A stretch of DNA of 64,000 nucleotides. Source: Photorhabdus heterorhabditis. GTDB taxonomy: Bacteria > Pseudomonadota > Gammaproteobacteria > Enterobacterales > Enterobacteriaceae. This document shows, one piece after another, positions 2,353-63,830 of the stretch (position 1 is its first letter; every line of letters begins with the position of its first letter). Position numbers and translations under genes: made by a program. Below the pieces are notes generated by a model, which was not told the DNA's origin, did no database searches, and saw nothing but the letters and a program-made list of their open reading frames with translations. Where the stretch lies: assembly GCF_018448905.1 (NCBI RefSeq), contig NZ_RCWA01000013.1:1-64000 (forward strand), given 5' to 3'.

Positions 2353-4995
2353 TTAAAGTTCAAGGGTTAAGTTTACAATACCATCTTCAAATTGAATATC
2401 TATGGTAAATCCCAGTTTCTTAGCGAGTTTTATCATAGTTCGATTTTCTGGCATGGTAATGGCGTTGAGGCGTCTTATGCCATGTTCTCGCGTATAATTA
2501 ATAAGTTTGGTCATAAGCTGATGCCCAAGGGTAATCCCTTTTAAATCAGAACGTACTAACACAGCAAATTCTGCTTCGACATTATCTGGGTCAGCTATGG
2601 CGCGAGTAACACCGATAATTTCTGGGTTGGTTTTAGGGTGATGCACGGCAACAAATGCCATTTCACGGTCGTAATCAATTTGGGTCATATTCGCTAGATC
2701 ATCGTGTGTGAATTCGCTAATTTCACTGAAATAGCGGTAATAGAGATCTTCTCTAGTGACCTGACCGATAAAATCTTTCAGCAATGGTTCATCTTCTGGC
2801 AAAATCGGACGCAGAAGGCATTCTGCACCACTTTTTAGTTTTATGGTTTCTTCTAGTTCGCTTGGATATGGGCGGATAGCCAATCTAGTTCTTGGGTCGC
2901 CTTCTATTGAAGACAATTCCATCGAAACATCCAATAGTGTGAATTCATCGCCAGAAGCTAGTAAAGGATGAATATCCAATCGTATGATCTGTGGGCAATC
3001 AAGTAATAGGTTGGATACTTGAACCAAAAGTCGGCTGAGTGCCAGCACATCTAGTGGTTGAAGAGAGCCTTTGAGCTTAATTTTTCTACTTTTAATGGCT
3101 TGAATAACTAAATATCGTGCTAATGCCATATTAAGAGGTGGCAATGCAACCGCTGCTTGTGTTTCCTGTAACCACTCTACACCACCTTCACCCAGCATAA
3201 TCAATGGGCCAAATACTTCATCTTGTTCTACTGCAATCCGCAATTCTTGCGCTCCAGCGCGGTTTGCCATGCTTTGAACTAACAATCCCTGAACTCTTGC
3301 TTGTGGAAAGTTTTGGTTGACTCGTTCGATAATTGCTTGAGCAGAAGCCCTGACTTCATCTGCATTTCGCAAATAGAGCATGACTCCCTGAACTTCTGAT
3401 TTATGTGGGATATCTGGTGATCGTAATTTCAGGGCGACAGGATAACCAATCTGTTGAGCAATACTGACTGCTTCATTACTGTCATGAGCAATCCATGTCG
3501 GAAGTGTATTGAGGCCATAGGCTTCCAGAATAGGTTGAACTTCATGGGTATCTAGACGAAAATTCTTTTGTTCTAGGGCTTGTTGTATGCACTGATGGGC
3601 GCGAGCTGTATTAGCGGTGATATTTGCTGGTAATGTTGGTGTCTCTGTTAATTGTTTCTGGTTGCGACGATATTCCACCATATGCATAAAAGCAGTCACA
3701 GCGCCTTCAGGGGTTCGGTAAGTTGGAATACCGGCTTCACTGAACAAACGGCGGGCTTCTTGTGACGAATATTCACCACACCAGTTGGTAAAGATAGTGA
3801 GCCATTTTCCCCGTGGATGTTGTCGGATTGTTTCAATCACTTTAGTTGCTGTATGAACGCCGGGAGCAATGGCGCTAGGTGAGTGAATAAGTAACAAGGC
3901 ATCATGGTCGTGGCTGTCCAACAACGGTTTTAGTGCTGTGATATAACGTTCCACGGTGGAGTCATCTCTTAAATCCAGCGGGTTATGTAAAGCGATAGTT
4001 TCTGGTAATTGTGTTTTCAATGCTTTCGTTGTTTCTTCTCCTAACGTCGCTAATTTACCGTTGCGGCGGAATAATTCATCCAGCGCCATTGCTGCTGGAG
4101 CTGCGCCATTACTGACGATAAACAATCGTTCTCCTCGTAAAGGTGACATATAACTTAATGTTTCTACAGCCGAAAACATTTCATGCGTGTCTTGTACCCG
4201 TAATAATCCAGCGCGCTGAATAGCAGCATCATAAGCAGCATCTAGATTTTGTTGCTCACCAAGTAATTTCTGTGCCCGCTTGGTACGACCACTTTTAACC
4301 ACAAGGATCGGTTTATTACGGGAAGCACTCCTGGATGCTGAAAGAAAACGACGGGCATCATGGATATGTTCAAGATAGAGCAAGATGGCGCTGGTTTTAT
4401 TGTCACGAGCCAGAAAATCAAGCAGATGATCAATATCAATATCGACACTATCGCCTAGCGCTATAAAGTAGGAAAATCCGACACCTCTGTGTTGTGCCCA
4501 GTCAAGAATGGTATTGGATACTGCTGCGGATTGAGAAATAAAGGCTAACTTCCCTTTGTGTATCGGAACCGGAGAAAAACTGGCGTTCAGTCCTTGCCAG
4601 GGTGCTAATAATCCCAAACTGTTTGGTCCGAGTAATCGGATACTATAGCGTTGGCAACACTGTCTTAGTTCGGCAAATTGGGATTTTGGTGAAGAAAGAA
4701 TAATAACTGTTTTACAACCTCGTTTCCCCAATTGCTCCAGACATTGCAAATTGCGGCTGTGATGAGTACAGATAACAGCCAAATCGGGTGTAATCGGTAA
4801 TTTATCTATTGAAGGATAGGCTAAAACCCCTTGAACGGAACTTTTATTTGGGGTTATCGGTAGTATTGGCCCGGCAAATCCTCCTGCGAGCAGGTTACGC
4901 ATCATAACTGAACCAGCTCGTTCTGGTTTTTCTGAAGCACCAATTACAGCAATGGATTTAGGGCGTAATAAAGCTTCAAGTCCTCGCTGGCTCAT
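2353..4995 (-). CDS. patZ: Protein lysine acetyltransferase, acyl-CoA synthetase-like plus GNAT (Pat/YfiQ)
   Basis: This is the large protein acetyltransferase that uses acetyl-CoA to acetylate lysines, for example on acetyl-CoA synthetase. The N-terminal two thirds are an NDP-forming acyl-CoA synthetase-like region: a CoA-binding fold from residue 10 (KSIAVIGAS), a ligase/CoA part, and an ATP-grasp-like part near residues 500-700. The C-terminal about 150 residues are a GNAT domain. The protein has 880 residues against 886 in E. coli. A TTG codon precedes the ATG. The ATG at 4995 is chosen because AAGGAG lies 7 nt upstream of it. It sits between tapT and pssA, as in E. coli. Confidence 0.95.
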   Translation of the reverse strand: MSQRGLEALLRPKSIAVIGASEKPERAGSVMMRNLLAGGFAGPILPITPNKSSVQGVLAYPSIDKLPITPDLAVICTHHSRNLQCLEQLGKRGCKTVIILSSPKSQFAELRQCCQRYSIRLLGPNSLGLLAPWQGLNASFSPVPIHKGKLAFISQSAAVSNTILDWAQHRGVGFSYFIALGDSVDIDIDHLLDFLARDNKTSAILLYLEHIHDARRFLSASRSASRNKPILVVKSGRTKRAQKLLGEQQNLDAAYDAAIQRAGLLRVQDTHEMFSAVETLSYMSPLRGERLFIVSNGAAPAAMALDELFRRNGKLATLGEETTKALKTQLPETIALHNPLDLRDDSTVERYITALKPLLDSHDHDALLLIHSPSAIAPGVHTATKVIETIRQHPRGKWLTIFTNWCGEYSSQEARRLFSEAGIPTYRTPEGAVTAFMHMVEYRRNQKQLTETPTLPANITANTARAHQCIQQALEQKNFRLDTHEVQPILEAYGLNTLPTWIAHDSNEAVSIAQQIGYPVALKLRSPDIPHKSEVQGVMLYLRNADEVRASAQAIIERVNQNFPQARVQGLLVQSMANRAGAQELRIAVEQDEVFGPLIMLGEGGVEWLQETQAAVALPPLNMALARYLVIQAIKSRKIKLKGSLQPLDVLALSRLLVQVSNLLLDCPQIIRLDIHPLLASGDEFTLLDVSMELSSIEGDPRTRLAIRPYPSELEETIKLKSGAECLLRPILPEDEPLLKDFIGQVTREDLYYRYFSEISEFTHDDLANMTQIDYDREMAFVAVHHPKTNPEIIGVTRAIADPDNVEAEFAVLVRSDLKGITLGHQLMTKLINYTREHGIRRLNAITMPENRTMIKLAKKLGFTIDIQFEDGIVNLTLEL

Positions 4996-17388: not shown

Positions 17389-18363
<975 letters not shown>

Positions 18364-53889: not shown

Positions 53890-54649
53890 TTAGAGAGCAT
53901 AAAAAACCTTGGGGCATTTATGTGGTAAAGCAGCTAAAGAAGCCACTTTAACGTATACCTTTATGGATACCGATCATCCTACCCACTACAGCCCTATGAC
54001 GATGGGTTCCATTTCCGGTGCATCAAGGTTAAGCCGGCTTAATTGGCGATTAACCTTTCGGCGGTTGAATCGGACAGTATCCAGTTCATCTATCAATGGG
54101 CGGATTTTTCTGACGTGTGTTGTGTCATCAGCATGAATAATTGCATTGAGTAATGCCAGTGTTTTCGTCGCTTCATCCTCTGACGTGGCACCGGGCATTC
54201 TGTTTCCGACCAGACAAAAAGGGGACTTCAGGCGAGAGTTTTCGAGAACCGTTTCAATATGGATATCGTGAAGCTAGGGCTCGAAAAAGTTGTACTCGTA
54301 GGTAAAGTGGTCACCGGCATCAAATTCAAAATCATCCAGTGTAATTTTGTAGGGATTATCTGAAAACCCGATCCCACCCTCGTAGGAAATACCGTAATTT
54401 TTGCCATAAATACGGAATTGATGCAGATGGTCATCCTGCCATCCTTGCGCGATCTGAATGATATAGTGCAAAGCCGCTAAAGACGTTTCGCCTGACAATC
54501 TGAATCGGCGCCAGACCATTGGACTGATACCTCGAAGGGCGATTTTCACAATATAAGTTTTCATGGTGAGGTGTTTGATAGAATGATGTTCCTTTGCTCA
54601 TTCTATCGCCGATTTAACACTGTGCCCCACAAATTTTTATGCTCTCTTA
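53890..54649. mobile_element. Candidate non-autonomous element with 27-bp inverted repeats
   Basis: 53890-53916 and 54623-54649 are inverted copies with 22 of 27 positions equal. Each begins with (A/T)AGAGAGCATAAAAA and ends GGGGCA, reading inward. Between them lies only the broken pRiA4b ORF-3-like gene. No transposase is present, so this would be a passenger or MITE-like remnant. The target duplication, if any, is not clear. It sits where synteny with E. coli ends. Confidence 0.5.
53986..54564 (-). pseudogene. Plasmid pRiA4b ORF-3 family protein, interrupted by an amber codon
   Basis: The N-terminal half (54274-54564) reads MKTYIVKIALRGISPMVWRR and continues through DDHLHQFRIYG and DHFTYEYNFFEP, the conserved pattern of the pRiA4b ORF-3/IS1096 TnpR-like family. 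A TAG at 54274-54276 stops it. The same frame then continues without a shift (LHDIHIETVLEN...CLVGNRMPGATSEDEA) to a stop at 53986, 193 codons in all. In intact relatives a tryptophan is common at such a place, so a single TGG to TAG change explains the break. No good ribosome binding site is seen. Function of the family is unknown. Confidence 0.75.
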
Positions 54650-54748: not shown

Positions 54749-55408
54749 TCAATTGGTTGGATCAACCTGAATTTCATCAATAAAAGAATCGAGGAACTTC
54801 TTCATACTCGCAACCCTCTCATGGGCCATCTGTTTACCTGATTGAGTCTGAAATCCAGACTCAATCTTAAATAGTTTGGTATAGAAATGATCGACAGCAT
54901 AGGTCTTATCATCATATTCACGCTGTTTTGCCAGAGGATCATGAAAATCATACAATGAAGAACCCATGCGGCCAGAGGTATAAAAACAGCGGATAACACC
55001 AATCAAACCAATAGAATCCAACCGATCAGCATCTTGTACTATTTGAGCTTCTAATGTTCTGGGGGTTAGTGCCGCAGAAAAACTATGTGCTTCAATGGCA
55101 TGGCAAACGGCGGTAATATCTTCCTCACTCCACTTTAACTCTTTCAATATTAATGCTGCTTTTTCTGCCGCCATACGAGAAGCCAGATGACGGTTTGGCG
55201 AGTTTTTTTCAACACTTACACAGTCATGCAGCAACACTGCGGTGAATACGAGCCGCAAGTTACCAGATTCTGCTTCACAAATTTTTTGTGCGTTTCTCCA
55301 TACTCGATAGAGATGAGCAATATCATGAGCACCGTCATCGCTTTCTATAGCTATAGGTAACAATTGTTGAGCTAAATTTTCAAAAGGTGAAAAAGATAAT
55401 ATAGTCAA
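54749..55408 (-). CDS. HD-domain phosphohydrolase, YedJ-like
   Basis: This is a metal-dependent HD superfamily protein, similar in length and pattern to E. coli YedJ. Motifs in order are AHDIAHLYRVW (first metal histidine pair), LLHDCV (HD), AIEAHSFSA and QDADRLDSIG. Substrate is unknown; nucleotides or phosphate esters are likely. The reading frame begins at a TTG at 55471, but a TTG at 55408 has GGAGAG 5 nt upstream, so I use it (219 residues). Both starts are non-ATG, so the N-terminus is uncertain. It stands between the repeat-bounded pseudogene and the biosynthetic cluster. Confidence 0.75.
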   Translation of the reverse strand: MTILSFSPFENLAQQLLPIAIESDDGAHDIAHLYRVWRNAQKICEAESGNLRLVFTAVLLHDCVSVEKNSPNRHLASRMAAEKAALILKELKWSEEDITAVCHAIEAHSFSAALTPRTLEAQIVQDADRLDSIGLIGVIRCFYTSGRMGSSLYDFHDPLAKQREYDDKTYAVDHFYTKLFKIESGFQTQSGKQMAHERVASMKKFLDSFIDEIQVDPTN

Positions 55409-55551
55409 AATCTCTCCAATGAATGAAAAAAGTCTCTTACCCAACTCTGTCTGAGTTTGTAACGACCACAATAACAGGATTAATCAACAGTAACATAACG
55501 GTTATTACTAAAGAAATTTAGCATTAGTTCTCGAGGTCAGGTCAAGATGTA

Positions 55552-55645: not shown

Positions 55646-56116
55646 TTAGACGTTAGGCTCCCAATACTCTTTAGCCATAAAAGCTTCATTATTATGTCTA
55701 TACTCGCAAACTTCATCAAAGAAATAGGCAATTTGCTTCACCGCTTCGTTGGAATCAGCTGCTCTATGGATTACATCTGCACCTGTCCAGACACTATATT
55801 TTTGTCTTATTGAACGTGTAGTGTCTTCTTCTGGGTTTGAGTAAGCTCCGGCGAAGTTAAATATACTTCCTAAAGCATTATGTCCACTCAGAACCAGCAA
55901 AGTTGATGGAGCTGACTGCATTACCGTTTTGAACTGCTTATGAAAGGGTTTACCCAAAATTTTGGGATATAAGAAGTAGAAGTCTTCGTCATTTAGCACC
56001 AAAGAACGGATATTATGTATTTTGAATCCTTTTTCTTCGAACTCAGTGATAATTTTCCCTACAAGCCCTCGATGAACAGCATCCGGCTTGATTAAAATAA
56101 AGCTTTTTTCTAGCAT
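55646..56116 (-). CDS. Divergent nucleoside-diphosphate-kinase homologue in the biosynthetic cluster
   Basis: The 156-residue protein has an NDK fold: FILIKPDAVHRGLVGKII at the N-terminus with the ATP-phosphate lysine K10, GKPF near 55, the helix around HNALG, and the catalytic histidine H117. The usual N-x-x-H-G-S-D-S active-site string is changed to DVIHRAADS, and SGP to SAP. It is therefore not the housekeeping enzyme, though the phosphohistidine is kept. It starts 7 bp inside the DegT gene end, with GGAG 8 nt upstream. It could phosphorylate a pathway nucleotide or sugar phosphate, or have a new role. Confidence 0.8.
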   Translation of the reverse strand: MLEKSFILIKPDAVHRGLVGKIITEFEEKGFKIHNIRSLVLNDEDFYFLYPKILGKPFHKQFKTVMQSAPSTLLVLSGHNALGSIFNFAGAYSNPEEDTTRSIRQKYSVWTGADVIHRAADSNEAVKQIAYFFDEVCEYRHNNEAFMAKEYWEPNV

Positions 56117-57195
56117 GAAACCTTCTCCAGAATTTCAATTATATAGTCGATTCCTTCCTGAGAAAGATCTGGATGGGTAGGAATGGTTATCAGGTTTTTG
56201 AGGACAGTATCTCCTTTCTCAATACTGCCATCATAAAATTTATTGAGGATACCAAACTTATACTTAGCCTCCCCATATTTTACAAAGTCCGTTTCAAATC
56301 CCATATCTTTTAGTACCTCATGAACATTGCCAAGGTCTCTATGATCTTTATCTTTAAGTACTAGGTTGTAGTAGTTAGGTTGTCCCAGGCAATCAATTTC
56401 TTCAAATCTCGTGCTCACTATGCCCTCCTTGATTTTCTCGGCGTTTTCTCTACGAATAGTAAGTTCATCATACACTCGTGTACATCTTGAGATACCTAAA
56501 GCCGCTTGGAGTGAACCTAGCTTGAAATTCAAGCCAAATGACAAGCCATTAAGGTTCCCAAGGTTGACTATTTCTCGCAAACGCTTAGTTCTTTGAGGAG
56601 ACGAAGGAATGATAAAGCCACCTTCTCCAGTAGAAAGGATTTTCTTATCATGAAGCGAGAAGCAACCATAATCAGAGAAAGTTCCAACCAGACGACCAGT
56701 CTTAAATGTACTGAAGTGAGCTTGCGCAGCGTCATCAATAACAATGATGCCTCGACTCTTACAAACTTCAGCAATCTCATCATAATTGACTGGATATCCC
56801 CATAGAGGGACAGCTATTATAGCCTTAGTTTTATCATTTATTTTACTTAGTAAATCGTCAATCGATAGTTCAGTTGTATGTGACGTTTTGGTATCAATAA
56901 ATACAGGCTTAGCTCCAACTGATAGGATCGGGAACGTTGTAGGTATCGTCGTATAACACGGAACTAAAACTTCATCATCAGCAGAAATGTCTTCAGCCAT
57001 TAGGCTAGCAATAAGTGCGCTCGTTCCACTAGAACAACACACTACATCATCAACTTCGAACAACTCTGCTATTTTTTTCTCAAATTGCTCAACAGTATCA
57101 CTTTTCCCTGAAAGCTTACCGAGATCCAATACTTTTTCCAGCTCAATCAGATCGTTGCTATGAGGTTTCTTTTTATAACTGTCATTAATTTTCAT
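56110..57195 (-). CDS. DegT/DnrJ/EryC1/StrS-family PLP aminotransferase
   Basis: Members of this family aminate keto-sugars, mostly nucleotide-linked, and some cyclitols. The 361 residues show CCSSGTSALIASLMA (phosphate-site), IVIDDAAQAHF with the PLP-contacting aspartate near 155, and SLHDKKILSTGEGGF with the PLP lysine (K184). All key residues are kept, so activity is likely. The start overlaps the oxygenase stop as ATGA, and the end overlaps the NDK-like gene, so translation is coupled. The amino sugar or amino acceptor is not known. Confidence 0.88.
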   Translation of the reverse strand: MKINDSYKKKPHSNDLIELEKVLDLGKLSGKSDTVEQFEKKIAELFEVDDVVCCSSGTSALIASLMAEDISADDEVLVPCYTTIPTTFPILSVGAKPVFIDTKTSHTTELSIDDLLSKINDKTKAIIAVPLWGYPVNYDEIAEVCKSRGIIVIDDAAQAHFSTFKTGRLVGTFSDYGCFSLHDKKILSTGEGGFIIPSSPQRTKRLREIVNLGNLNGLSFGLNFKLGSLQAALGISRCTRVYDELTIRRENAEKIKEGIVSTRFEEIDCLGQPNYYNLVLKDKDHRDLGNVHEVLKDMGFETDFVKYGEAKYKFGILNKFYDGSIEKGDTVLKNLITIPTHPDLSQEGIDYIIEILEKVSC

Positions 57196-57956
57196 GGTAA
57201 TACAATCCCCTTAATATCCGTTTTAACCACTAGGTCCTCTTTTTCATAGAGGTAATATCGATGCAACTTTCTACTAAAGCTTTCCTCAGAAATAAACTCT
57301 CGACCATGAATGCACCTTCTGTTGTTTACGATGAGTAACTGGTCGGTTTTCAACGCAATCTTCTGGCACAAGCGTTGATATAATGAAGAAAGCTTTATCG
57401 CACATTTTTTTGCTTTCTCTGTTTTATAAGTCTTTATTGAGTTAGAGAATCGAACTTGAAAAAAACCATCAGAAAAATGAAGGATAGGCTTCCAAGAACT
57501 ATCTAACTCGTTGGACTCCATAACAAATGATTTTTGCCACTCAAATACATAATTTGGTGAACTAAGCTCGCAAATTTCATCATCATTCATGTGATATAAG
57601 ATTTCTTCGATATGACAGACTGTGGTTCCCACATCACTGCCACAAATAGAAAGAAGTGCTACATAGTTTGGGATTATCGACAGACCTCTAACTTTCTTCC
57701 ACTCGGTATCGAATGGAAGAAAGCTTGCATCAGTGTGACCTCTTAACTTTTTTCTAGATTGAACAATACCTTCTTTAGGGGATAGGATAGACGCGACATC
57801 CCCTAAAATCTCAGACCGAAAGCCGAAGGTATGCATGCCTATAGTGTCTCGAATATAATTAGTGAACATATCATCACTGTGGCCAAGGCATGAAGGTGTA
57901 TCAACACACACCCAACCTTTAGCACTTAATTCTAAGAGTATTTTGGTGTTATTCAT
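57192..57956 (-). CDS. Clavaminate-synthase-like Fe(II)/2-oxoglutarate oxygenase
   Basis: This is a TauD/TfdA-superfamily oxygenase of about 254 residues. The iron ligands are H74 and D76 in LRGHTDASFLP. The distal histidine and 2-oxoglutarate arginine lie in IVNNRRCIHGREF and FSRKLHRYYL (from about residue 220), a pattern typical of clavaminate-synthase-like enzymes that hydroxylate or desaturate free or carrier-bound amino acids. The ATG at 57956 is used; TTG codons at 57965 and 57962 are nearer the AGGAG and may be the true start. It overlaps both neighbours by a few bases. Confidence 0.78.
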   Translation of the reverse strand: MNNTKILLELSAKGWVCVDTPSCLGHSDDMFTNYIRDTIGMHTFGFRSEILGDVASILSPKEGIVQSRKKLRGHTDASFLPFDTEWKKVRGLSIIPNYVALLSICGSDVGTTVCHIEEILYHMNDDEICELSSPNYVFEWQKSFVMESNELDSSWKPILHFSDGFFQVRFSNSIKTYKTEKAKKCAIKLSSLYQRLCQKIALKTDQLLIVNNRRCIHGREFISEESFSRKLHRYYLYEKEDLVVKTDIKGIVLP

Positions 57957-59019
57957 AGACAACAAAATCTCCTGTTACTTGCCCGTAAAAACAACCAATA
58001 TTTGTTTCCATTTTGAAGCTATTACTTTCGTCTACCTTCTCATTTTTAAACAAACGGTAGAATCTTGTAGGAGTGCCCCTATCAAACAGTTCTCGTGATT
58101 TGGCGGTTGGATCGTCTGATATTAATGCAACGCACTTTTTATCAAATTGAGAAACGTCCGGAGTACTAAGTTCCCATGAAACCATTTTGACTATGTCCGC
58201 ACCACTTGGATACTTGCTAACATCAATTTCATTAGCTTCAATATATTTACGAAGCTTTGCAATAGCAGGACCTAATCCATGCGAACTAATTAGTGTTCTC
58301 ACTATGTGCTCACATGCTTTAAAATCGCTATTTTCAAGCAGAATGAGAAGATCCACAAAGTCCCTAATTGTTAAATAATCTTTGTTGTAAATTTGAATAA
58401 GTATTATCAATATAGAATTAAGATCACTAACTACATTGACATATGTCCCTCTCAAAATAGTGTTGTAGCAGCCAGAATATAACGACTGTAGTAATATTCT
58501 CGAACCATTATCATCGATTGGGTAGTGATCAACATGGATTTCAAATCCACGATCATCATCTTTCCCTTTCGTATATCGGAATGATTTATAAACTTTTTCT
58601 GTAACAACATCTTTTATCCAAATAGTACTGAAATATATATCGTACCCATGCTTAATCAACAAAGCATCAAGCAATGGTAAGTGATCTTCTAATACTACCA
58701 AATCTGCGTCAAAAGCGAATCGCGAGGCACTTTCATGGTAAAAGCGCTCTACAGATAACCCCTTCAAAACTAGAACAGAATTTTTTAGTTCTGAGGATTT
58801 AGCGATATCGTTAAGTACGATCGATTTTTCTCTCTTTTCATTTTCAATATGACAATACTCTTCGCTACTCTGGCCGGTTGCATATACAAACATTGATAGA
58901 ATCTTCTCTTGGAAGGCAGACTCTTTGTTTAAGACCGATATGTACTTCTTAATTGCTTCAGGCAACCAACCATTTAGACAATAATTATAGTATGAATCAA
59001 TTACTTTAGATTTTTTCAT
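57949..59019 (-). CDS. Putative nucleotidyltransferase (NTP_transf_5 type)
   Basis: The 356-residue protein resembles the uncharacterised nucleotidyltransferase family NTP_transf_5: VLKGLSVERFY, with K86-G87, then SRFAFDADLVV, with aspartates 104 and 106 in place of the usual D-x-D metal pair, then a helix ending KHGYDI. The remainder is helical and unassigned. Relatives occur in natural-product and polysaccharide loci. It starts behind the best ribosome binding site of the cluster (AGGAG, 8 nt). It opens the second block of four overlapping genes after a 300-bp gap. Confidence 0.6.
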   Translation of the reverse strand: MKKSKVIDSYYNYCLNGWLPEAIKKYISVLNKESAFQEKILSMFVYATGQSSEEYCHIENEKREKSIVLNDIAKSSELKNSVLVLKGLSVERFYHESASRFAFDADLVVLEDHLPLLDALLIKHGYDIYFSTIWIKDVVTEKVYKSFRYTKGKDDDRGFEIHVDHYPIDDNGSRILLQSLYSGCYNTILRGTYVNVVSDLNSILIILIQIYNKDYLTIRDFVDLLILLENSDFKACEHIVRTLISSHGLGPAIAKLRKYIEANEIDVSKYPSGADIVKMVSWELSTPDVSQFDKKCVALISDDPTAKSRELFDRGTPTRFYRLFKNEKVDESNSFKMETNIGCFYGQVTGDFVVYE

Positions 59020-59319
59020 TGTTTCTTCTCCTCGAAGAAAAAGCCAAATAGAATGGAATAAAAACTAATGCAAATTGATACTTTGTTCACCTTCTCTTGT
59101 TACATATATTCTATTTCATAGAACCATTGAAATAAACAATATTATTAATGGATGTAATTATTACAATAATTTCATTGCACAATCTAAGCTTATTTACACC
59201 TGTTTATGAATTATAAAATCACATAAAAAAACATTAACCTCATGCCCATTATATAGAGCTTTCCTTTATCATTAACCTTATCAATTCCTAACCAATTTAT
59301 GATAAGTTGATAAAACACA
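59020..59319. other. Intergenic stretch between the two cluster blocks
   Basis: This is 300 bp of AT-rich DNA with no gene. It separates the carrier-protein block (59320-62948) from the nucleotidyltransferase-to-NDK block (55646-59019). It leaves room for a separate promoter, described in the next entry, and a long leader of about 220 nt. Confidence 0.5.
59248..59275 (-). promoter_or_regulatory. Possible promoter of the second cluster block
   Basis: On the minus strand TATAAT (59253-59248) is a perfect -10. TTAATG (59275-59270) is a weak -35 at 16 bp spacing. It points to the nucleotidyltransferase gene. AT-rich DNA makes chance matches likely. Confidence 0.3.
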
Positions 59320-59541
59320 TTAAATAAGACATTTATTTACTAAGACAATAATTGAATTCATATCAGAAAAATCATCAAACGTAAGATCTTCATCTAGTAG
59401 GTTGATATCAAGCTCATTTTCCAAATTAATAATCAAAGAAACAATTTGAAATGAATCCAAGTCATCAAGTGATTTTATTTCAGATTTCTTCATAAACTCA
59501 ATTACTATTATTTCAATATCTAAATTTGATTTTTTGCCCAT
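59320..59541 (-). CDS. Acyl/peptidyl carrier protein
   Basis: This is a 73-residue acidic helical protein with the carrier signature DDLDSFQIVSLIINLENEL. Ser30 is the expected 4'-phosphopantetheine site. It is not fatty-acid AcpP, whose DSL motif and length differ. It starts 22 bp inside the end of the adenylating enzyme, so the two should be made together. It would be loaded by that enzyme and carry an amino acid for modification or transfer. Confidence 0.85.
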   Translation of the reverse strand: MGKKSNLDIEIIVIEFMKKSEIKSLDDLDSFQIVSLIINLENELDINLLDEDLTFDDFSDMNSIIVLVNKCLI

Positions 59542-60905
59542 AATTCCAACTTTTTATAATTTACTTTTCCACTTATTAATGTAGGTACAGATTCGATACA
59601 AAAAATTCCTTTCACTTTAACATTCTTAATGAATCCGCAATCAAATATTTCGCCTTCGTTTTTAGGTTGATAAAAAATTGTAATTCCAGTATTGCAATCT
59701 ATATTTTTGTCATAATAAAGAACAACAAAAACCAAAGGATTATTGTTCTTTACTCTTAATTGTTCTTCAAGACCTTGAAGATCAACTCTATGCCCCATAA
59801 TCTTAGTCTGCCGATCTATTCTTCCCTCAAAATATACCTCACCATCTAATATAGTTACTAAATCTCCTGTATCGTAATACACTTTACCATCGACTTTCAC
59901 AAAGCTATTCTTTGAAGTACCTATATATCCATTAAAAATTTGAGGTCCTGACAATAATAATTTATATAGATTGCCAGATAAATGCTCAGTTTTGTATGAC
60001 ATATCCCCTAAAGCTCGGCCAAGACTAGGTGGGCCTTCAATACCCACATCACTTATCATACATGCGATTGTTGTTTCAGTTGGTCCATATAAATTAAATA
60101 TCTTCTGGCAATTAGATATTTGTGCCCAAGAGGTTACGACGTGTTTTCTTAATAATTCTCCGCAAAACAAAGAAACTTTTAAACTAGACAGTTGATGTGA
60201 TTTTGGTTTGAGAGAAATCAGCATCTGAGCGAGTGTAGGAACAGAAAACCAATAAGTGAGTTTATTATTTTCCACCTTATTTAGTAATTGTCCAATTTTT
60301 TTGGTTTCTACAGGAGTTATGGAGCTTGCACTCTTCCAACTTAGAAATAGATCATGATAAAAAAGATCAAAAGCTGGAGAAAATGTATTAGTTAATCGTT
60401 CGATGCCTTTTTCAATTTCCAATTCTTCATAGATATTATCAATATAATGTTTTAAGGCTAAATGTGTAATCGGAACTCCTTTAGGTAAACCAGTAGATCC
60501 TGATGTGAACAATATGTATGCAGTTTTTGCTGGCATAATAACTGAATCGTTTCTATCTGCTTTATGTTTTATATGATATACACTAAGATCTTGATTGAGC
60601 CTGATATCAGCTTTAACTGCATTAATTATTCGCTCTTTATATTCATCATCCCAATCTGAAATCAAAGGAACTATCGTATTCTTGTTTTTCCACATTGCCG
60701 AAAAAACAGAATACATATTTATATCCTTTCTTTCAATATCAATAGCAACTACTTTCTCTATCACTTCAGAGAAGTAATCTGAAAAATAAACAACTTTGGA
60801 AAGGAACTCACCATATGTAATTTCAATGGGATGGTCTCTATAAAAAATAGACTGAGAAAAATTATTTGATGAATAGTACAAATATTCAATTACATTGAAT
60901 GACAT
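59520..60905 (-). CDS. Free-standing adenylation enzyme (amino acid:carrier protein ligase)
   Basis: This ANL-superfamily protein of 461 residues has all core motifs: A3 LFTSGSTGLPKGV near 132, A4 AFDLFYHDLF near 183 with the aspartate that holds an alpha-amino group, A5 NLYGPTETT near 285, A7 YYDTGD, A8 GRIDRQTKIMGHRVDLQGLEE and a C-terminal lysine in SGKVNYKKL. It should adenylate an amino acid and load the adjoining carrier protein. GGAGG lies just before the ATG. It overlaps the upstream gene by 16 bp. Substrate cannot be read reliably from the sequence. Confidence 0.88.
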   Translation of the reverse strand: MSFNVIEYLYYSSNNFSQSIFYRDHPIEITYGEFLSKVVYFSDYFSEVIEKVVAIDIERKDINMYSVFSAMWKNKNTIVPLISDWDDEYKERIINAVKADIRLNQDLSVYHIKHKADRNDSVIMPAKTAYILFTSGSTGLPKGVPITHLALKHYIDNIYEELEIEKGIERLTNTFSPAFDLFYHDLFLSWKSASSITPVETKKIGQLLNKVENNKLTYWFSVPTLAQMLISLKPKSHQLSSLKVSLFCGELLRKHVVTSWAQISNCQKIFNLYGPTETTIACMISDVGIEGPPSLGRALGDMSYKTEHLSGNLYKLLLSGPQIFNGYIGTSKNSFVKVDGKVYYDTGDLVTILDGEVYFEGRIDRQTKIMGHRVDLQGLEEQLRVKNNNPLVFVVLYYDKNIDCNTGITIFYQPKNEGEIFDCGFIKNVKVKGIFCIESVPTLISGKVNYKKLELWAKNQI

Positions 60906-61762
60906 AGTTCCTCCATTACATGATTGAACATGGGATCAATCTCCAAGAATGAAAATCCCTCAATATAGGAGAAAGCACTTGTTCCTATTTCGTCAGTTAT
61001 AAAGCCACCATTACCTATTACTTCAAATAATTTATATGGGCCAACTAAATGAATAGCTGCGAGAATACCACTTTCGGACACTTCAAAAGGAAACTTCTTT
61101 TCATTGTTTATATATTTCACTAAGTGAACCAAGTCAAAATTCATACCTATAAGGTTACATAATTTATTAATCCCGCTAGCCCATATGGCATAAATAATAG
61201 TGGTCTGTTTATTTGGTTCATATAGATCTTGCAAATTATTAACCCCAAATTTTCCTGTAAAATCACCTTGCCATGTATTATATGATGTACATATGAATGA
61301 TTCACCTTTAGGATAGTCAAATAGTTCGAATTTATTATTTCCTTTCCATATATATTCAGGGTGAACGAAATCATAGTAAACCTTATAATTTCTACCATTT
61401 ATTTCCATATCTTTAGGGTTGTATACTCCTAAAGAGAACAAAGCAGACTCACCAATCTGTATGCCTACAAATCCCCAAGGATTAATCACTCTAAAACAAT
61501 TCTTTTCTAGAGAATAATGACTCAAATCATCATAAGTAATATTAACTCCTAAACTATTAAAGTATTGCTCATATGACATGAATGTTAAAACAGGAGCTCC
61601 ATTAATTGGATTTCTTATTAGTTCTCCGGGCTTCTTAACCAAGAAATACTTGACAGCATCTCTAGAATTAAAGCCTTTTTTATATATATCCAAATAATCA
61701 GGGTTTATCCCAGATTCTTTGTAAAGAATATTCTTTAATATATCGTATTTAGCGTTTATCAT
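60890..61762 (-). CDS. Unassigned protein resembling lysozyme-like glycan hydrolases
   Basis: I do not recognise a named family. Three stretches resemble, from memory, a group of phage and bacterial lysozyme-like proteins: NPWGFVGIQIGESALFSLG near residue 94 (their G-x-x-Q-x-GE-x-AL block), WQGDFTGKFGVNNLQDL near 165 (W-x-GK-x-G block), and SESGILAAIHLVG near 232 (SG-LAA-HL block). The 290-residue protein has no signal peptide, so it would stay in the cytosol. It starts one base after the condensation-like gene and overlaps the adenylation gene by 16 bp. Role in the pathway is unknown. Confidence 0.4.
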   Translation of the reverse strand: MINAKYDILKNILYKESGINPDYLDIYKKGFNSRDAVKYFLVKKPGELIRNPINGAPVLTFMSYEQYFNSLGVNITYDDLSHYSLEKNCFRVINPWGFVGIQIGESALFSLGVYNPKDMEINGRNYKVYYDFVHPEYIWKGNNKFELFDYPKGESFICTSYNTWQGDFTGKFGVNNLQDLYEPNKQTTIIYAIWASGINKLCNLIGMNFDLVHLVKYINNEKKFPFEVSESGILAAIHLVGPYKLFEVIGNGGFITDEIGTSAFSYIEGFSFLEIDPMFNHVMEELCHSM

Positions 61763-61763
61763 A

Positions 61764-62948
61764 TTATTTAAAATTTAGATTATGTGAATTATTAAAATTT
61801 TCAATTAACAAATAAAATAACCCTCTAATATAATACTCTTCGTAATCAAGAGAAGAGAAGTCTAGAATTAAATCACAATATTCAGAATCAATAATAAGTC
61901 CAATACCTATATGCATAATTCGACATGCTCCACGATCATTGACTAAAATTTTATGTTTGTACTGTGTGTTAATTTTTCCTATAAACCATTTTTTATTTAT
62001 TACATTTAGGCAAATTGATGGGAATTGTATACCAACCTCTCCATATTCAGTTTTACTAGCAAGCAGAGTATTAGTATCGCCACCATATAGAGTATTCATT
62101 AGCACTCTGGATCTGATATCATTGACACAGTAACCATTTTCGCTCTTTTTTATTATCAACGGCCGTATCTCATTCAACCATCCTAATGTATATCTAGGAT
62201 CTATCGAATAAGTAGGTTCTCTTCCATGTTGATTTAACCCTATATATAAGTGTTCTCCTCCAAAAAACTCATCAAATGACGATGCAATGGCTTTAATTAA
62301 ATGGGCTGTAATCATATTGTCTGATGTAGATCTTAAAACTTTATGACGAAGAACTGAGGTACTGGACTCTAATTTCATATCTCTAATTGGAAATCTTGAT
62401 TTCTCAGAGTTATGAATTTTTAACTCACAATATTCTTTTATGAAACCTAAATTATATTTGTTATTTCTTGATTTCTTACCCAGTTTAGAAGATACAAAGT
62501 TTTTAATATGGTTCTTCTCATATAAATCCCAGTTAGTATCCTCTCCAGATAACAGATTTGAAATCATTCCATTGGAAAGTGCATCAGATAAGAAATGATT
62601 TACGGCAAAGAAAAAACTTAAGCCATTAGTGGTTTCTTTTAAAAATAAAGTAAGTGGTTTTATCAAATTATAATCAGATAACATTTCATGTTCATAATCT
62701 TCATAAGCCATTATCTTTATTTTTACTTCACCTACAGGTTTAACACGCAAGTCAGTTGTTATCGTGTAGTGAACAAATAACTCAGGGCATATTTTCGACA
62801 GCCTAGATAAGTTAGAATTGAGTTTTTCTTTTGCATCATCACCATATATATGAAATTCTGGTGTTGTTGATAGCCATTTGTAAAACTCAGAATTACGGCG
62901 ATCTATAAAAGTAACTCGATTTGATAGTATATTTAAGTAGTAATCCAT
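61764..62948 (-). CDS. Free-standing condensation-domain-like acyltransferase
   Basis: The 394-residue protein looks like a distant member of the NRPS condensation/acyltransferase superfamily. The central motif is FFFAVNHFLSDALS, with H118 and D122 in place of the usual HHxxxDG (first His to Asn, Gly to Ala). DPRYTLGWLNEIRPLII near 262 resembles the conserved G-x-F/L-N-x-x-P block. It would join the carrier-bound amino acid to an amine or alcohol. The GTG one codon upstream is not used; GGAG lies 6 nt before the ATG at 62948. It is the first gene of its block after the glycosyltransferase. Confidence 0.65.
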   Translation of the reverse strand: MDYYLNILSNRVTFIDRRNSEFYKWLSTTPEFHIYGDDAKEKLNSNLSRLSKICPELFVHYTITTDLRVKPVGEVKIKIMAYEDYEHEMLSDYNLIKPLTLFLKETTNGLSFFFAVNHFLSDALSNGMISNLLSGEDTNWDLYEKNHIKNFVSSKLGKKSRNNKYNLGFIKEYCELKIHNSEKSRFPIRDMKLESSTSVLRHKVLRSTSDNMITAHLIKAIASSFDEFFGGEHLYIGLNQHGREPTYSIDPRYTLGWLNEIRPLIIKKSENGYCVNDIRSRVLMNTLYGGDTNTLLASKTEYGEVGIQFPSICLNVINKKWFIGKINTQYKHKILVNDRGACRIMHIGIGLIIDSEYCDLILDFSSLDYEEYYIRGLFYLLIENFNNSHNLNFK

Positions 62949-63059
62949 CACTCACTCCAAACGGGTTTATCATTAATAAATTATTACACTAGAGTGCAAG
63001 TTGGTAATTAATTCTTAATTAACTACCGTCAGTAGATAGAATACAACTCATTTGTAAAT

Positions 63060-63830
63060 TCACATCACTTCATTTTCCAACCTTAATATTTGTCTATTTA
63101 GCTGTGCCTTTGCTGTCGGAAATTTATCGAAAAAATCAGACTGTTCACAAAGTAATTTGTGACATTCTTTAATTCTTTTTTCATTGAATTTACTTGATGT
63201 TAACTGATTAATAGAATGCTTGTTGACCTCAATGTAAATCTGATTTATAGGTACCGGATGAATATTGTTCTTTAGCAAGCGAATAACTAGTTCTGTATCT
63301 TCTATATATCTGTATTTTGGATTAAAGTATCCGATATCCTTAAGTGCTTCTCTTGCGCAAGTAAGTCCATATCCAGTTCCAATCCTTAAAGCTGTCACTA
63401 CCAAATCTGAAAAACTATCATATTCAATAGGAAATTTTATATCGAATTGACTTACACAAGATTCGGATACTCGATCTAAAACTTTCACGCTTGACCAATA
63501 AAAACAAGATTTATCAACGCTATTTAAAATTTCATTATGTAATCTTTCCAAATAATTAGGTAACATTATGTCATCATCATCTAGGAAAGTTATATAATCT
63601 CCACTTGCATGTTTACATCCAATACTTCGACAAAAACCTGGACCTTTACCTAAGTTACTTTCAATAACTGTCACATTAGGTATATGTAAAAAAATGTTAC
63701 CAATAGATTTTTCTGCATCATTAACTATGATAATTTCTTTATTCAAGAATTTCTGTGAATTAACGCTGTTAACTGCATTCAGTAGCATTGATGGCCTATT
63801 AATTGTTGGAATTATTACTGAAATTTTCAT
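63060..63830 (-). CDS. Family 2 glycosyltransferase
   Basis: This GT-A fold protein of 256 residues starts MKISVIIPTINRPSMLLNAV. It has the nucleotide-sugar region GKGPGFCRSIGCKHASGDYITF, the metal-binding run FLDDDDI near 84, and an acceptor-side YIEDTELVIRLLKN near 185. It lacks membrane spans, so it acts in the cytosol. GAGGG lies 7 nt upstream of the ATG. It leads the visible part of the cluster, 111 bp ahead of the condensation-like gene. Donor and acceptor are unknown. Confidence 0.85.
   Translation of the reverse strand: MKISVIIPTINRPSMLLNAVNSVNSQKFLNKEIIIVNDAEKSIGNIFLHIPNVTVIESNLGKGPGFCRSIGCKHASGDYITFLDDDDIMLPNYLERLHNEILNSVDKSCFYWSSVKVLDRVSESCVSQFDIKFPIEYDSFSDLVVTALRIGTGYGLTCAREALKDIGYFNPKYRYIEDTELVIRLLKNNIHPVPINQIYIEVNKHSINQLTSSKFNEKRIKECHKLLCEQSDFFDKFPTAKAQLNRQILRLENEVM

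Follow-up and report, generated by a model that had tools for sequence, protein, structure and literature searches.

A mobile cluster of free-standing, putatively biosynthetic genes in Photorhabdus heterorhabditis with relatives in Vibrio and Acinetobacter

Gene content and protein families

The DNA analysed was a stretch of 64,000 nt (the window) from the insect-associated bacterium Photorhabdus heterorhabditis (contig NZ_RCWA01000013.1). At 55646-63830 it carries nine genes belonging to a cluster of about eleven, which probably serve to make and export an undescribed small molecule. The nine open reading frames (ORFs) were checked in the window. All lie on the minus strand without internal stops, in agreement with the original prediction, an earlier note that had described a cluster of nine same-strand genes built from free-standing parts. 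The block extends past the window edge, where positions are given in the numbering of locus L009 (window position = L009 + 49999). Two plus-strand genes were found there, coding for a nucleotidyltransferase-like protein (NTP2, L009 14645-15712) and a MATE transporter (L009 15747-17072). The exporter and this second nucleotidyltransferase, the transposon described below and the difference in GC content between operons are additions to that prediction.

From the glycosyltransferase gene to the kinase gene, the gaps between neighbours are 108, 1, -16, -22, 300, -17, -4 and -7 nt. The genes form two tightly coupled runs, 300 nt apart. The first run codes for a GT2 glycosyltransferase (63060-63830, 256 aa, with a DDDD motif), a putative condensation-type (C-type) acyltransferase (61764-62951, 395 aa), a lysozyme-like protein (u290; 60890-61762, 290 aa), a free-standing amino acid adenylation (A) enzyme resembling DltA (59520-60905, 461 aa) and a carrier protein (59320-59541, 73 aa), the start of which overlaps the adenylation gene. 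The second run codes for a nucleotidyltransferase-like protein with a DAD motif (NTP1; 57949-59019, 356 aa), an Fe(II)/2-oxoglutarate (2OG) oxygenase of clavaminate synthase/TauD type (57192-57965, 257 aa), a DegT/DnrJ/EryC1/StrS aminotransferase (56110-57195, 361 aa) and a nucleoside diphosphate kinase homologue (NDK; 55646-56116, 156 aa). The second run has a GC content of 35-39%, whereas the first run, NTP2 and the MATE gene have 24-31%. This oxygenase/aminotransferase/kinase operon, which differs in GC content, is less securely part of the cluster.

Five of the nine proteins were above Pfam cut-offs: GT2 (PF00535, 80.7 bits), A (AMP-binding PF00501, 120.8 bits), DegT (PF01041, 200.8 bits), NDK (PF00334, 123.7 bits) and NTP1 (NTP_transf_5 PF14907, 44.1 bits for a cut-off of 31.2). 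The A enzyme has the core motifs TSGSTGLPKG, YGPTE, YDTGD and SGKVNYK. Its specificity code, read by eye from the usual positions, pointed to no known substrate and was not used. In NDK, a KPD motif and the His of an IH motif (His117) are present. The DKKILSTG motif of the aminotransferase was aligned to the pyridoxal phosphate (PLP)-lysine region of 7b0m, and its lysine is presumably the PLP lysine. The 2OG enzyme scored 22 bits with TauD (PF02668), under the cut-off of 27, and contains in order HTD at 77-79, His220 and the Arg of RKLHRYYL. The roles of this triad and Arg, like those of the other active-site motifs cited here, are those usually assigned to such motifs. The carrier had no Pfam match and only sub-threshold NCBIfam matches (DltC and AmcB), although its DSF serine is present; of the 62 genomic positions matched by PF00550, none falls on this gene. 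The similarity of the A enzyme and the carrier to DltA and DltC is far under curated cut-offs.

NTP2 also belongs to PF14907 (163.8 bits), but a direct comparison with NTP1 gave no significant mutual similarity. It also has a faint similarity to Lnu(C) (17.7 bits for a cut-off of 300). The transporter fits MatE (PF01554, 113 bits for a cut-off of 24.9) far better than Polysacc_synt (10.3 bits); TIGR00797 gave 117 bits, under its cut-off of 147. Neither the 395-aa nor the 290-aa protein matched a Pfam or NCBIfam family, and comparison with PHROGs yielded no useful match.

The C-type protein was compared with the condensation family PF00668. The hhalign probability was 3.2%. With the PF00668 hidden Markov model the E-value was 0.054, better than 500 shuffled sequences but tied with an unrelated ORF at 0.065. 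Its motif NHFLSDALS retains the second His and the Asp (His119-x3-Asp123) and is without the first His and the Gly; at the matching point, the C-type proteins of Vibrio and Acinetobacter read HHxxxD. An AlphaFold2 model from two sequences reached a pLDDT of 33 and was dropped. Relatives of the C-type protein were limited to its own genome among 398 Pseudomonadota genomes; no plasmid matched at E ≤ 0.01, and one phage record was found at E = 0.07.

In the lysozyme-like protein, Glu16 is invariant in the seven sequences aligned. Residue 6 of its model matches residue 1 of T4 lysozyme, which would put Glu16 close to Glu11, the residue that we take to be catalytic in that enzyme. Foldseek returned no significant match for u290, and a fold absent from its list could still match. 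The predicted fold gives weak support to the label 'lysozyme-like'.

The transposon and its copies in Photorhabdus

The gene set sits in a composite-type transposon of about 14 kb, inserted between nagE and glnS. Its left arm (53892-54647, L009 3893-4648) is an element of about 756 nt with AGAGAGCATAAAAA ends, containing a PRiA4_ORF3 gene at 54274-54564 on the minus strand. The right arm (L009 17111-18050), outside the window, is an inverted copy interrupted by a 175-nt repeat. The arms match each other at 99% over stretches of 472 and 294 nt. GTTGGTT lies directly outside both arms; this direct repeat, of 7-9 bp depending on the arm end chosen, is the target-site duplication. No transposase was found in the arms, where PRiA4_ORF3 is the only gene scanned with Pfam and the other ORFs are of 75 aa at most. 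Movement would thus need a transposase from elsewhere, hence the name 'composite-type'. The 175-nt repeat (L009 about 17583-17757) has four more copies in the genome at 99-100% and is therefore probably a recently active small element.

The insertion site was compared in five of the 13 genus genomes. In one (G150) the site is empty at the insertion point, where the repeat occurs once, with one base changed. In two others (G138 and G159), no more than about 45 bp separates nagE from the glnS side. The remaining two (G154 and G155) showed no clean junction.

A second Photorhabdus species (G154) carries a collinear block elsewhere in its genome, in three pieces with 96.9-98.7% identity to the source genome. 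The flanking DNA on the glnS side is only 89% identical between the two genomes, which argues that the block moved between the species after their split. In G154 the block adjoins genes that we take to code for an extracellular injection system, together with two effector-like genes (L017 9329-12283) assigned by Pfam to MLD/PMT_C2/ChaN-like and peptidase C58. If G154 is TTO1-like, as the description of the 568-aa plu2400 suggests (PMC2422844), the copy would come directly after plu2401. A third, decayed copy was found in P. australis (L028), with the same inner borders and different end sequences; it was matched to genome G151 on the basis of identical contig coordinates. The A protein is present in two of the 13 genus genomes (source genome included) and the cluster in three if the decayed copy is counted.

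Selection was estimated between the source genome and G154 on ten genes. The MATE gene was excluded because it is split in G154 and the HD-domain gene of the transposon because it is not shared; GT2 was compared over 762 nt because its ends differ. The pooled ratio of nonsynonymous to synonymous substitution (dN/dS) was 0.20, from 75.5 synonymous differences over 1830 sites and 59.5 nonsynonymous differences over 7044 sites. Eight genes taken individually gave values of 0.10 to 0.40; for NDK and the carrier, which lack synonymous changes, no separate ratio is defined. With the collinear copy at another site, this pooled value argues that the gene set is more than a chance assembly. The cluster is real, intact in the source genome and mobile.

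Related clusters in Vibrio, Acinetobacter and other bacteria

A profile of u290 matched seven loci in a collection of genome contigs, one of them the P. australis copy. In Vibrio ouci (L029) the homologue stands beside genes for C-type, GT2, nucleotidyltransferase, carrier (recognized from translated frames) and A proteins. This C-type protein matches PF00668 at E = 2.8e-4, under the curated cut-off. The set is preceded by TMK, two OMP-decarboxylase-family genes and a class-V aminotransferase. The A ORF of V. ouci (L029 13875-15293) is shorter at its end than that of V. lentus (472 against 505 aa), a sign of possible damage to the V. ouci gene. Plasmid p1 of V. lentus has the same set as V. 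ouci, with an annotated MATE protein, acyl carrier protein and phosphopantetheinyl transferase. Identity to the V. lentus proteins is 36% for GT2 and 30% for u290, and the MATE protein has 24% identity (E = 4e-8) to the Vibrio one.

Homologues of u290 were found in seven of 72,556 plasmid records. Two, from Rhizobium and Ruegeria, are not in such clusters; the other five come from V. lentus, V. nigripulchritudo (twice) and Acinetobacter (twice). The gene annotation was read for three of these five, and the other two were assigned from the GT2 gene next door. Identity to the Acinetobacter proteins is 35% for GT2 and 30% for u290. When the Acinetobacter GT2 was compared with the same plasmids at E ≤ 1e-25, five records were recovered (its own included), all with a u290 homologue. 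The Acinetobacter stretch has A, a weakly matching nucleotidyltransferase, carrier, a split transketolase, a DegT-type aminotransferase and, adjoining it, an NDK with a long C-terminal extension. It also has two Ddl-type ligases, an amino acid kinase, a TMK-like protein, GT2, an acyl-CoA dehydrogenase and the u290 homologue. In a metagenome-assembled genome labelled Akkermansia (L030), the u290 domain is fused to a GT2 in one protein.

The clusters of V. lentus p1, V. nigripulchritudo and Acinetobacter sp. SAAs474 p12 thus have GT2, lysozyme-like, C-type, A, carrier, nucleotidyltransferase, aminotransferase and nucleotide kinase genes in common with the Photorhabdus cluster, and the Vibrio ones also MATE. 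They are annotated as separate genes only. They differ from it by the class-V aminotransferase, the two OMP-decarboxylase-family genes and TMK in Vibrio, and by the split transketolase, the two Ddl-type ligases, the amino acid kinase and the acyl-CoA dehydrogenase in Acinetobacter; no 2OG enzyme was seen in either. In sequence comparisons, only the similarity of GT2 and u290 to the related clusters is strong and specific. The recurrence of this core, in marine and lake bacteria as well, suggests that the cluster is more than a local oddity. Core genes of the original prediction co-occur outside the strain, in a second Photorhabdus species, Vibrio and Acinetobacter.

The family was also surveyed in sets of genomes. 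With the source genome counted, u290 was present in four of 149 genomes of the taxonomic family and five of 398 Pseudomonadota genomes. In the phylum of the fusion protein, it was found in one genome of 288, that of the fusion itself. Among Vibrionaceae it was present in 22 of 247 genomes, and 20 matches were given loci. The short cluster type accounts for two of these (G545 and G792); the open frame is 501-818 aa long in 16 and 327-329 aa in two. The remaining two genomes, G649 and G568, gave fragmentary matches only. The long proteins (L047-L062) look secreted, with the lysozyme-like domain on the N-terminal side (eight of the 20 loci were inspected). Domain scans of two of them found chitin-binding CBM5/12 in both and no Pfam family over the N-terminal domain. 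In the stretches seen, relatives from Rhizobium, Ruegeria, Enterobacter, Serratia, Pluralibacter and Lumbricidophila lie outside such clusters.

The other proteins were searched for in the same way. The 2OG enzyme matched two of the 398 Pseudomonadota genomes, its own (with a second weak match) and G310 (E = 1.7e-6), and two Vibrio plasmids at E = 2e-3. Among plasmids NTP1 had no match and NTP2 matched 27 records. Viral contigs gave no match to NTP1 or to the u290 alignment. Scanning the genome contigs with the A enzyme found no relative, a weak null since the scan also missed the second Photorhabdus copy and may omit near records. Neighbourhoods of A-enzyme matches on V. tubiashii p251 and in Pseudochrobactrum, and of an oxygenase match in V. 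coralliilyticus, contained no cassette gene by annotation and were set aside. V. tubiashii p251 (L022) and V. coralliilyticus p319 (L024) carry ATP-grasp gene sets resembling other small-molecule clusters, one with citrate synthase and aconitase, the other with a PLP enzyme and a TauD-type oxygenase.

Proposed product and alternative explanations

The interpretation starts from what was observed directly: gene content, intactness, selection, transposon structure and the recurrence of GT2 with the lysozyme-like protein. We consider there to be about an even chance that the locus is a biosynthetic cluster for an exported small molecule, mobilized by insertion sequences, and that it represents a new cluster family in Photorhabdus. 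Genes for amino acid activation recur together with GT2/u290, nucleotidyltransferase, nucleotide kinase and PLP aminotransferase, which fits an aminoacylated amino-sugar or nucleoside-type product; chemistry, substrates and product are all deduced from the genes. The 2OG oxygenase would oxidize a sugar or nucleoside (or its phosphate) and the DegT aminotransferase would aminate it. The aminated intermediate would be activated by nucleotide kinase and nucleotidyltransferase steps. GT2 and its lysozyme-like partner would build or edit a glycosidic bond. The adenylation enzyme would load an amino acid on the carrier, from which the condensation-type protein would transfer it to the amine, and the MATE protein would export the product. 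NTP2, beside MATE, might give self-protection by nucleotidylation, which is a guess. The related clusters share this logic but not all enzymes, so their products likely differ.

Several points weigh against the proposed biosynthetic cluster. The two runs differ in GC content. The label 'condensation-like' is putative, being based on motif and position and not significant by sequence. The A-enzyme similarity to the related clusters is not specific: the score was 125 bits with the Acinetobacter A enzyme and 114 bits with an adenylation domain of a non-ribosomal peptide synthetase (NRPS) of its own genome. At E ≤ 0.05 the Vibrio and Acinetobacter clusters contain no protein matching 2OG or NTP1, and NDK does not match the Acinetobacter NDK; the DegT proteins have only 25% identity. 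The idea of DegT and NDK as an inherited pair is weakened by these last two results. The nucleotidyltransferase families also differ, PF14907 here against NTP_transf_2 (under cut-off) in Vibrio and Acinetobacter. The Acinetobacter C-type protein is in two ORFs (3.7e-9 and 0.0024), and its genes are scattered over about 20 kb with transposase genes between. In G154 an insertion with a transposase ORF, presumably of IS630 type (L018 about 3243-4389), interrupts the MATE gene, so export may be lost in that copy. In P. australis, two deletions took most of A, the end of u290, the start of C-type and all of GT2; the C-type and NTP2 frames are broken, NTP2 being in two ORFs. The original prediction was to be refuted if the genes never co-occurred outside this strain and showed decay. 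The core does co-occur elsewhere and the window copy is intact; decay affects the P. australis copy and the MATE gene of the second species.

A more far-reaching version of the proposal seems rather doubtful to us. Under it, insertion sequences and plasmids would spread natural-product clusters of a new class between bacteria. GT2 would have a cytosolic enzyme with a lysozyme fold as its obligate partner, and the two would help to build an antibiotic that is an aminoacylated amino-nucleoside or amino-sugar. Secreted chitin-binding enzymes would then be the source of a fold that otherwise cleaves carbohydrates and would here serve to synthesize small-molecule glycosides.

The alternative that survives best, though we judge it unlikely, restricts the pathway to the AT-rich part (GT2, C-type, lysozyme-like, A, carrier, NTP2 and MATE), with NTP1-2OG-DegT-NDK as a separate operon travelling along. 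The GC difference across the 300-nt gap agrees with this, as do the other accessory genes carried by the Vibrio core and the lack of relatives of 2OG and NTP1 in both related clusters. However, the two runs stand together in the same order in the source genome, in G154 and, partly deleted, in P. australis. Acinetobacter likewise has NDK beside a DegT-type aminotransferase, and Vibrio has an aminotransferase and TMK. It is quite improbable that the cluster is a decaying or silent mobile remnant that no longer functions in this strain. Two other genomes hold damaged copies, and the cluster is present in only three of 13 genus genomes (decayed copy counted), which speaks for this explanation. Against it, all genes are open in the source genome, the pooled dN/dS is 0.20 and the same core is found in Vibrio and Acinetobacter. 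In the Dlt D-alanylation system, a free-standing A enzyme (DltA) works with a carrier (DltC). The least probable explanation, a similar system in which A and carrier would charge an amino acid, C-type would transfer it to a surface glycan or peptidoglycan and GT2 and the lysozyme-like protein would act on the glycan, has in its favour the DltA/DltC similarity and the secreted look of u290 relatives, of which the two scanned carry CBM5/12 domains, but the transporter is far closer to MatE than to Polysacc_synt, u290 (read by eye) is without the N-terminal signal regions of its secreted-type relatives, and no DltB- or DltD-type gene was seen in the block, nor any further long ORF as a candidate DltB-type partner.

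The proposed biosynthetic cluster was compared with known nucleoside pathways. In A-90289/caprazamycin-type clusters (LipL, LipO, LipM and LipN), a 2OG oxygenase, an aminotransferase, a nucleotidyltransferase and a glycosyltransferase act in that order. The order of reaction types, as generally described, is alike, and we know of no lysozyme-like protein in these clusters. No gene like Pur10, Pur7 or Pur3, which we take to be a dehydrogenase, a NUDIX protein and an inositol-phosphatase-like protein, was found in the block, as judged from Pfam content and not by direct comparison. In P. luminescens, adgB-E of the adgA-E cluster for 3'-amino-3'-deoxyguanosine are homologues of pur10, pur4, pur7 and pur3, with a major facilitator superfamily exporter (PMC9239236). 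It is likewise a low-GC Photorhabdus cluster with clear borders, an amination step (AdgC, the Pur4 homologue) and an exporter, but in the available parts of that paper it has no A enzyme, carrier, GT2 or lysozyme-like protein (PMC9239236). The thmA-C genes of P. asymbiotica, for 4'-thiothymidine, also give a Photorhabdus nucleoside antibiotic and include phosphate-handling enzymes; according to the available text they code for a radical SAM enzyme, a nucleoside kinase homologue and a triphosphatase, whereas the block is without radical SAM (PMC12691670). A global survey of Xenorhabdus and Photorhabdus clusters does not name this cluster in the passages available (PMC9177418). The open literature was also searched by locus tag and by term, and these genes turned up in no report. 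Within these searches the cluster is undescribed, which supports the claim that this set of parts matches no described pathway.

Should the biosynthetic reading hold, these few mobile genes would direct the synthesis of an exported compound not yet described, in a genus from which nucleoside antibiotics are already known. The expectation that common cluster detectors rank the set low is plausible, and standard rules for NRPS and polyketide synthases may miss it, the carrier escaping PF00550. The pair of GT2 and lysozyme-like protein, fused in one lineage, would provide a searchable signature across Photorhabdus, Vibrio and Acinetobacter and would point to an unexplored enzyme partnership.

Two minor features of the locus were recorded. 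An HD-domain phosphohydrolase gene (54749-55471, minus strand) lies within the transposon; it is present in the P. australis copy and outside the block shared with G154, and may be a passenger. Between GT2 and NTP2, at L009 14164-14224, the 9-nt unit ATCTAAGTA is repeated 6.8 times in tandem, with fewer copies in P. australis as judged from its ORF.

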